Shown: piece after piece, positions 29,753 to 32,081 of the stretch | Numbering within the stretch: the stretch's first letter is position 1 | Layout of the letters: each line of letters begins with the position of its first letter | Assembly: GCA_030041455.1 (NCBI GenBank) | Contig: JASHNV010000190.1 | Location: 1 to 32,081, forward strand | DNA from: Spirochaetia bacterium | GTDB lineage: Bacteria; Spirochaetota; Spirochaetia; DAHUYW01 | Length of the DNA stretch: 32,081 bases | Reading direction: 5' to 3' | The notes under the pieces: model-generated | The model's database searches: none | What the model was told of the DNA's origin: nothing | What the model saw: the letters and a program-made list of their open reading frames with translations, nothing else | Translations under genes and position numbers: made by a program

Positions 29753-30328
29753 TCAATCCCTCCTCGCTCTGCCGCTTGCGGATCGCTTCCGGCGGCCGAT
29801 CGAGGACTCCGGAACGACGATGGTGCTGACCGTGAACTGCCGCCTCCCCGGCCCCGGTCGCTGGGCCAGCGCTCTCGTAACCGGGCCGACGAGCGCGGCT
29901 CCGAGCCGTTCGAGCTCCCTGTCGTCCAGGTAGAGAGTCGCCTGTCGGTAGCCCGCTCCGTCTGCCGCGAGATCCAGCCCGCTCTGGTCGAGATACCGTT
30001 CGAAGCCTCCGATCACCGACGCAATGAAGGCCATGAACATGCGCAGGTGGTCGTCGCGGGAAAGCGGGCGGAGATCCTCCCGGGTGATGGCGATGTTCTC
30101 CCGCGCGACGGTGTACACCCGCTCGATCGCGCCGCGCACCCGCTTCTCGTCGACGACGGAGATGATGCCGCCCCGCCACAGCAGGCCCACATGCCGGTAC
30201 AGCGTGGCGGGTGGGACGTCGGCGATCGACTTCGCAACCTCGCGCGTGGTCAGCTTCCGACCGAACAGGATCTGGATGACGCGCATCCGGACCGGATGCA
30301 GGATCAAATCGATCTTTGATGTCATCAT
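29753..30328 (-). CDS. ArsR-like winged-helix transcriptional regulator
   Basis: A 191-residue DNA-binding protein. Residues about 5-75 form a winged helix (IDLILHPVRMRVIQILFGRK, then the recognition helix PATLYRHVGLLWRGGII and wing VRGAIERVYTV). The rest is a helical domain (HLRMFMAFIASVIGGFERYL) of the kind paired with helix-turn-helix domains in ArsR/YtcD-like regulators. No metal-binding cysteines are visible. The first of two adjacent ATGs (30328, 30325) is used; the ribosome site is poor. The alpha/beta hydrolase starts at its stop codon. An inverted repeat overlapping its own promoter suggests autoregulation. Confidence 0.82.
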   Translation of the reverse strand: MMTSKIDLILHPVRMRVIQILFGRKLTTREVAKSIADVPPATLYRHVGLLWRGGIISVVDEKRVRGAIERVYTVARENIAITREDLRPLSRDDHLRMFMAFIASVIGGFERYLDQSGLDLAADGAGYRQATLYLDDRELERLGAALVGPVTRALAQRPGPGRRQFTVSTIVVPESSIGRRKRSASGRARRD

Positions 30329-30342
30329 CTTCGACCATTCGC

Positions 30343-30388
30343 TATCAATATTAAGAATGATAATGATCCCGTTCTTAGTCCTCGTCAA
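30343..30388 (-). promoter_or_regulatory. Candidate promoter and operator of the ArsR-like regulator
   Basis: On the minus strand TTGACG (30388-30383) and CATTAT (30365-30360) are 17 bases apart. A short inverted repeat TATCA...TGATA (30343-30347 and 30358-30362) overlaps the -10 box and the transcription start. This is where a repressor such as the encoded protein would block its own expression. Confidence 0.4.
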
Positions 30389-30801
30389 GGTCGACAAGGA
30401 CGAGCGGCGGACGCGATTCGGCGCCATCGATGGCGGCCCCGCTCGTCGACGGAACGGTCCGGGACGCGGTGGCGACCGTCAGGCTCCCACGGAAGACCGA
30501 TCTCCTCCATCCGAGGAGATCGAGGGAGCCCCGCCGGCCTCGGTGGGGCCGCCGTCGATGGCGGCTCGCCTTTCTCGCCGTATCTCGGATACTTCGCCCG
30601 CCGAAGCGGTCGCTACGGCTCTTCGCCGAGGGGAAGGCTCTTCGGTCATTTCATTCGCGCGGATCGCCCGACGCATGCCGCGAGCGATTCGAGGTTGATT
30701 TTCTTCGAGCGGTGCTTGAAACTTACCGGAGACTGCCATGGCCCGACAGCTGAGCCTGCGGCAGCCACTTAGTCCCTCCGAAGGGAATGGAGGAGCCGAC
30801 G
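30389..30801. other. Gene-free stretch between regulator and decarboxylase-like gene
   Basis: About 410 bases between two divergent genes. I see no gene with a good start or motif; open frames on the plus strand are Arg/Pro-rich shadows. No strong plus-strand promoter for the next gene was found, though TTGATT near 30696 could be a -35 box. Confidence 0.35.
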
Positions 30802-31287
30802 ATGCACGAGCGACCGAATTGGACCGAGATCAATCCGGAGGCGTACAAGGGATTCAGGGCCGCCGCGGCGAGCACGGGAACGCTCGACAAGACGGTCAAG
30901 CACCTCGTCGAGGTGCGGGTATCCGAGATGAACGGATGCGCTTTCTGCCTCGCCATGCACACGCGCGAGGCGCGCGAGAACGGCGAGAGCCAGCGGAGGC
31001 TCGATTGCCTTGCCGGATGGCGGGACTTCCCGTCGTTCACCGACAAGGAGCGCGCAGCGCTCGAGTGGGCGGAGGCGTTGACCCGCATCGCCGAGACCCA
31101 CGCGCCCGACGACGTCTACGCGCGGCTCCAGGCGTGCTTCAGCGAGCGCGAGATTGTCGATCTGACCGTGACGATCACGGTGATAACACCGTTGACTCTT
31201 TGTGGAACTCTACAGTATAGTATACGGCAACAGCGAGAGGTTGTCAAATGCAGAAAATGGGTATCTATCTTCGGGTTTCCACGTTAG
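30802..31287 (+). pseudogene. Carboxymuconolactone decarboxylase/AhpD-like gene, 3' end replaced by a mobile element
   Basis: The frame gives a 161-residue product. Residues 1 to about 127 are a normal member of the carboxymuconolactone decarboxylase/AhpD family: the active-site pattern E42, C46, C49, H53 in SEMNGCAFCLAMH is intact, as are KTVKHLVEVRV and FTDKERAALEWAEALT. These proteins are thiol peroxidase partners or decarboxylases. After DLTVTITVI the family sequence normally continues as an Asn-x-Trp-Asn-Arg segment; here it changes to unrelated residues rich in Gln, Arg and Cys, with AT-richer codons, from about base 31183. A serine recombinase gene begins 65 bases later, so the gene was cut by that element. 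The ATG at 30802 follows GGAGGAG; ATG 30787 is less likely. Confidence 0.75.
31192..31221 (+). promoter_or_regulatory. Candidate promoter of the serine recombinase
   Basis: TTGACT (31192-31197) and TATAGT (31216-31221) are 18 bases apart, within the element's left end. A second A/T box TATACG follows at 31221-31226. Transcription would begin near 31228, about 20 bases before the recombinase ATG with its GAGAGG ribosome site. Confidence 0.5.
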
Positions 31288-32081
31288 GACAGCTCAAAAA
31301 CACGTCATTACCGGACCAACAACGGGAAGGGGAAGCGTTTGCACGTTCTAAGGGCTATATCCCGATTATCTACGCCGATGAAGGGGTATCCGGGGCGAAA
31401 GACCGGGCAGGGTATGACCGACTTCTCAGTGATATAGAGGAAAGTAGGATTGTCGCGGTATGGACCCTTGCGGTAGACCGCACGACACGCGAGATGAGCT
31501 ACATTCTTGAGCTGATTGCCGTCATTCGGAAAAAGAAAATACCGTTCTATTCGGGCGATATCCTCTATAATCTTGACGACGCTGTTCAAAAACTCTCCGT
31601 CCAAATGCAAGCGGCCATTGCCGAGTTTGAACTTGAGAAAATTCGAGAGCGCTTGATTCGCGGTCGCATAAGCCGGGCAAACAATGGTGAGCGAAGGAAC
31701 CACGGACTGTATGGCTACGACTTTGTCCATACGCCGGACGGCAAGTATCTTCCGGTCCTGAACGAGAAGGAAGTAGAGACAATACGTTTAGTATATCAAT
31801 TATATCAAAAAGGTCTAAGTTTCCTGAAAATCGCTCGGTATCTGAATGACCACGGTATTCCGACAAAGCGCGCCCCAAACGGAACATGGCATCCGTCCCA
31901 AATCAGCAACATCTTCGCAACCCCGGAATATGGCGGAAAAGCGTGGAACTGGAATAGGACCGAACTCCTCGATAGCAAATACCACGAAGCAATTATCGAC
32001 TACGAGACGTGGCAAAGTGTCCAAAAGAATGTTTGGCGTATTGCGGCGGAACGGAATCGCGGAGGAATCAAGGCAACCGAG
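31248..32081 (+). CDS. Serine recombinase (resolvase plus Recombinase domain), N-terminal part
   Basis: The first 278 residues of a site-specific recombinase, open to the end of the window. The catalytic resolvase domain shows R9 and the nucleophile S11 in YLRVSTLGQ, D77, R78 and R81 in VDRTTR, and the long helix FELEKIRERLIRGR. The DNA-binding Recombinase domain follows (about 165-260) with HGLYGYDF, LVYQLYQKGLSFLKIARYLNDHGIPT and SQISNIFATPEYGGKAW. Such proteins integrate phages, transposons or SCC/ICE-like elements at specific sites. GAGAGG lies 7 bases before ATG 31248. Codon usage is more A/T-rich than the genes to the left. The rest of the gene and element lie to the right of the window. 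Confidence 0.93.
   Translation, partial: MQKMGIYLRVSTLGQLKNTSLPDQQREGEAFARSKGYIPIIYADEGVSGAKDRAGYDRLLSDIEESRIVAVWTLAVDRTTREMSYILELIAVIRKKKIPFYSGDILYNLDDAVQKLSVQMQAAIAEFELEKIRERLIRGRISRANNGERRNHGLYGYDFVHTPDGKYLPVLNEKEVETIRLVYQLYQKGLSFLKIARYLNDHGIPTKRAPNGTWHPSQISNIFATPEYGGKAWNWNRTELLDSKYHEAIIDYETWQSVQKNVWRIAAERNRGGIKATE

Follow-up and report, generated by a model that had tools for sequence, protein, structure and literature searches.

A probable serine-integrase insertion in the 3' end of an AhpD-like gene, with attL and attR on two contigs of one draft genome

Two described systems, both of which use serine recombinases, come closest to the locus reported here. SCC cassettes, with their Ccr recombinases (CcrA and CcrB), insert at the 3' end of a gene, rlmH, and leave its protein functional. 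Phage large serine integrases (phrog_95; A118/LI, TP901-1, phiC31, and Bxb1 type) combine a catalytic with a recombinase domain, are encoded next to an att site, act on a near-symmetric attP with a two-base overlap, and insert within a protein-coding gene of the host, which excision can restore. An attP half-site of these enzymes spans about 25 bp, and the attP of A118 is pseudo-palindromic (PMC3783163). In the A118/LI model, the zinc-ribbon motif of attB sits about 5 bp inward relative to its position in attP (PMC3783163), and the orientation of Bxb1 integration is attributed solely to the central dinucleotide in the title of Ghosh 2003, as cited in PMC4111918. The present locus shares with the phage integrases the domains, the adjoining integrase gene, the near-symmetric attP with its two-base overlap, and the insertion inside a restorable protein gene. 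It differs in its AhpD-like target, in a predicted overlap, AT, that is self-complementary, in an identity of about 32% to the best phage integrases among the matches listed, and in that the remaining element is unrecognised.

The window analysed comprises the entire contig C58 (32,081 bp), one of 199 contigs in a 3.39-Mb draft genome, and its last position, 32081, lies inside the recombinase frame. The features below are given in window coordinates or, where prefixed L087, in coordinates on contig C177 of the same assembly.

30802 to 31184, plus strand: AhpD-like (CMD family) gene, 5' portion encoding native residues 1 to 127 (from PF02627, TIGR00778, and the intact copy of a relative)
31160 to 31210, no strand: attL, consisting of the host B half-site (to 31184) and the element P' half-site AACACCGTTGACTC... 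(from 31185), from comparison with L003 and attR
31183 to 31184, no strand: predicted overlap dinucleotide AT in attL, equivalent to L087:4558-4559 in attR, from the centre of the attP palindrome and its presence in both attL and attR
31185 to 31287, plus strand: continuation of the AhpD-like frame past the break into element DNA, 34 residues (ITPLTLCG...FGFPR), overlapping the recombinase start
31185 to 32081, no strand: left arm of the element, 49% GC
31192 to 31221, plus strand: sigma-70-like promoter preceding the recombinase within the P' arm, TTGACT-18-TATAGT (consensus match only)
31248 to 32081, plus strand: large serine recombinase (integrase; PF00239, PF07508, and phrog_95), codons 1 to 278, cut by the contig end
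L087:1-4557, no strand: right arm of the element (4,557 bp), 48.5% GC
L087:4558-4614: native last 18 residues of the AhpD-like gene, from the tail search and a reading of the junction

The open reading frame from 30802 matches the Pfam CMD family (PF02627; E 7.6e-22) and scores over the cut-off of TIGR00778 (ahpD_dom, the ahpD core domain). The family match runs to ...DLTVTITV, and the switch occurs at 31183-31184; the preliminary description had placed the replacement of the family sequence near 31183, which is confirmed here and refined to 31183/31184. It was also right that the active site is kept, as C46 and C49 of the CxxC motif, together with H53, are present within NGCAFCLAMH. Its estimate that the last 20 to 25 residues are lost was too high, since 18 native residues are missing and 34 foreign residues follow up to a stop codon at 31285-31287. 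In the single same-genus genome searched, the gene (L003/L083) is uninterrupted, encodes 145 aa, and ends AVMNAWNRTQISMRRSPPHD before its stop codon. Identity to this copy ceases just before the break, where the window reads ...TVITPLTLCGTLQ..., and after TV the AhpD-like frame of the window continues as ITPLTLCGTLQYSIRQQREVVKCRKWVSIFGFPR.

At the position of divergence, an N.[WF]NR motif (in a pattern that also accepts T for N) is found in 74 of 80 relatives. Because the conserved, NAWNR-containing C-terminal segment has been replaced, the function of the interrupted protein is probably lost or reduced, though its CxxC stays. The target is a probable antioxidant gene. Divergent from it on the minus strand lies an HTH regulator (29753-30427; PF12840, with NCBIfam PRK06474 just above cut-off), which may control it.

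The missing tail is present elsewhere in the assembly. A search of all 3.39 Mb with the conserved tail AAYGCNTGGAAYMG gave one match, on contig C177, and the reversed control gave none. The junction there reads ...ATTTTGCTTCGGTGTTATGAACGCGTGGAACCGAATGCAGATTGCGATGCGCCGCGCGCCGGCCGAGCGATAG, that is, foreign DNA followed by the tail MNAWNRMQIAMRRAPAER. When the window up to 31184 is joined to C177 from L087:4560 onward, a single in-frame 145-aa frame results, colinear with the gene of the relative and equal to it in length, with 12 of the 18 tail residues identical to those of that relative. The joined gene aligns over nearly its full length with the AhpD-like CMD proteins Atu0492 (2gmy; E 1.7e-35) and PA0269 (2o4d; E 4.6e-31), from which the gene described here differs in being interrupted, and neither of its halves shows decay. 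GC content falls from 63% to 49% across the break in the window and rises from 48.5% to 64% across the junction on C177, setting both arms (0.49 and 0.485) apart from both host flanks (0.63 to 0.64). We infer that C58 and C177 belong together, as they are separate contigs of a draft assembly and no bridging contig was found when the assembly was queried with both contig ends. The DNA of the same-genus relative gave no match to the host right flank on C177. The same flank holds a cluster of five tRNA genes (L087:15804-16384, minus strand), which was not used as the site of the element.

Comparison of the two junctions gives both attachment sites to the base. attL is ATCACGGTG-AT-AACACCGTTGACTC and attR, on C177, is TTTGCTTCGGTGTT-AT-GAACGCGTGG. 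The implied attB is thus ATCACGGTG-AT-GAACGCGTGG, inside the 3' end of the AhpD-like gene, and the implied attP is GCTTCGGTGTT-AT-AACACCGTTGAC. The core of attP, CGGTGTT-AT-AACACCG, is a perfect 16-bp palindrome centred on the AT that it shares with attB, and the bases flanking AT differ between attB and attP on both sides. A 7+7 inverted repeat around AT arose about 9 times in 100,000 shuffles (p ~9e-5). Farther out, 16 to 26 bp from the centre, attP carries an inverted 8-bp motif, TGGAACTC, whose copies lie at distances from the centre that are unequal by 3 bp; a pair within 5 bp of register was obtained in 0.7% of shuffles (p ~0.007). The arrangement of these repeats agrees with the way in which half-sites of large serine integrases are built. 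The inward displacement in attB expected from the A118/LI model is not clearly visible: TGGAAC is present in a single attB half, displaced by 8 to 11 bp, and the two attP copies already differ in position by 3 bp. The dinucleotide GT at 31180-31181 would also keep the reading frame as a crossover; AT is favoured because it is the centre of attP symmetry. Since AT is self-complementary and the orientation of Bxb1 integration is attributed to the dinucleotide, we predict that the orientation of integration should not be fixed here. No viral contig matched the 20-bp form of attP. The 16-bp palindrome occurs in six viral contigs, none of which has a related recombinase in the stretch examined, and these were rejected as chance matches.

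A misassembly would offer another reading of the window, in which the AhpD-like gene on C58 was misjoined to unrelated low-GC recombinase DNA. The assembly is a metagenome-style draft in 199 contigs, with a contamination estimate of 4.28%, and C58 stops about 900 bases past the break. A chimera is nevertheless largely refuted, because C177 has the reciprocal attR junction with the exact missing tail. Further, the two foreign ends make a palindrome centred on the break, and the integrase starts just downstream of it, as expected for attL; we regard a misjoin as extremely improbable. On the sequence of both junctions, the 145-aa gene restored at the empty site, the N-terminal half of an integrase at attL, and the foreign composition of both arms, we conclude with high confidence that an integrative element entered the 3' end of the AhpD-like gene by serine-integrase recombination between attP and attB.

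Under this insertion model, a prophage or other integrase-carrying element would have inserted through attP x attB recombination, with the AT step as the point of staggered cutting and exchange. Transcription of the integrase would start at the P'-arm promoter, and the AhpD-like gene would be restored exactly upon excision aided by a directionality factor. The proposal of the preliminary description that the decarboxylase-like gene is the attachment site is upheld by the reciprocal junction, attR, and the attP palindrome, and its two suggested checks, a search for the missing 3' end of the gene and a comparison with an uninterrupted copy, led respectively to attR at the sole match on C177 and to the colinear 145-aa gene of the relative. 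A promoter and a recombinase do follow the break at once, as it had stated, at 31192-31221 and from 31248. Two promoter-like sites were found in the region, against 0.2 expected from shuffles. The second, TTGACA-17-TATACT (11/12 positions; 31247-31219, minus strand), is a strong match and divergent: it overlaps the integrase promoter and faces outward from the element, in antisense to the AhpD-like gene.

The visible part of the recombinase comprises the catalytic domain with YLRVS (Resolvase, PF00239; E 5.9e-27, residues 6-148) and most of the recombinase domain (PF07508; E 1.6e-17, residues 173-261), in a frame that is open for 278 codons. It matches the phrog_95 integrases (E 6e-60, 204 bits, model positions 87-354 of 651) and the TP901-1 integrase (3bvp; E 1.6e-9). 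By all the decisive features that can be assessed, namely these two domains, the attL and attR sites, and the inverted half-sites of attP, the system is one of a phage-type large serine integrase; the zinc ribbon and coiled-coil of the C-terminal part would lie beyond codon 278, where the contig ends.

The best NCBIfam matches, CcrB (9.2e-28) and CcrA (8.4e-22), raise the alternative that the element is a cassette of the SCC kind rather than a phage. The locus resembles SCC in this respect, in having a serine recombinase, and in being inserted close to the 3' end of a gene, and no phage gene was recognised. The Ccr scores nevertheless fall far short of the equivalog cut-offs (for CcrB, 97 of 900 bits), the score against the phage integrase family is much higher, and a single recombinase is seen. 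In addition, the host protein is not left intact, 18 residues of a conserved segment being replaced here, whereas SCC insertion preserves RlmH function. By the two features tested, the Ccr cut-off and the effect on the host protein, the element is not SCC, and a cassette of this kind appears quite unlikely.

Within the phylum, relatives of the recombinase reach about 33% identity at best among the good matches. None of the related loci examined adjoins an AhpD-like gene, and a conserved target could therefore not be shown. A literature search returned no paper containing both "serine integrase" and "carboxymuconolactone decarboxylase" (which is weak evidence of novelty), and little was found on this bacterial lineage. 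The type of event is well known and mostly ordinary, and the novelty, which is modest, lies only in the target gene and the self-complementary overlap. It is conceivable, but rather doubtful, that the element represents an undescribed prophage or integrative lineage that targets AhpD-like genes via a self-complementary AT and could integrate in either orientation. The locus provides one serine integrase (its N-terminal half) with paired, base-exact attB and attP. Should its naturally self-complementary overlap be confirmed, the control of integration orientation could be tested on it. The AhpD-like target is a clean, if ordinary, case of a gene that is broken by insertion and would be restored by excision.

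The cargo to the right of the break, which the preliminary description considered unseen and possibly a new element, is out of view in the window because C58 ends at 32081, an assembly limit. About 4.6 kb of right arm has now been recovered on C177; the middle of the element is missing, and the recovered arm belongs to no recognisable family. Its roughly eight small frames, most of them on the minus strand, match nothing in Pfam, PHROG, or PADLOC above background. The right-arm proteins tried gave no match in phage records, and no structural or packaging gene was recognised in the recovered arm. Neither the recombinase nor any of three right-arm proteins had a match among viral contigs, and two right-arm proteins have essentially no relatives in 393 genomes of the phylum (one marginal match at 4e-4). 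The assembly contains no PF03354 terminase. Among about 140 of the 199 contigs, screened over the first 20 kb each (those under 3 kb lay outside the screen), no further one had a comparably low GC. Since the right-arm genes have no known family and the middle is missing, a prophage and another integrative element both remain as readings.

The element might also be real but old and immobile, its integrase or att sites no longer working. The remainder of the recombinase was not found in the assembly beyond C58, nor was the middle of the element in the contigs searched, and one right-arm gene appears frame-shifted: at L087:1233-1695, a C run marks the junction of two plus-strand frames that overlap, a pattern that points to a frameshift, to a slippery gene, or to misassembly. 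Decay nevertheless seems unlikely, as the integrase frame is open throughout its visible codons, the attP palindrome is perfect, the halves of the AhpD-like gene show no decay, and contig breaks account for the missing middle.

The last gene before attR (L087:3916-4521, minus strand of C177) encodes a 201-aa predicted lipoprotein (MNRFLLLIVGAALGVMSLASC...), whose putative signal peptide, by our own reading, ends LASC. Searches of Pfam, PHROG, NCBIfam, and PADLOC gave it no significant match, its GC content is closer to that of the host than is the GC content of the remaining right arm, and it is a candidate for a host-altering cargo gene. Elsewhere in the right arm, at L087:1754-1847, three imperfect 25-nt ACC-rich direct repeats follow one another at a spacing of 34 to 35 bp.
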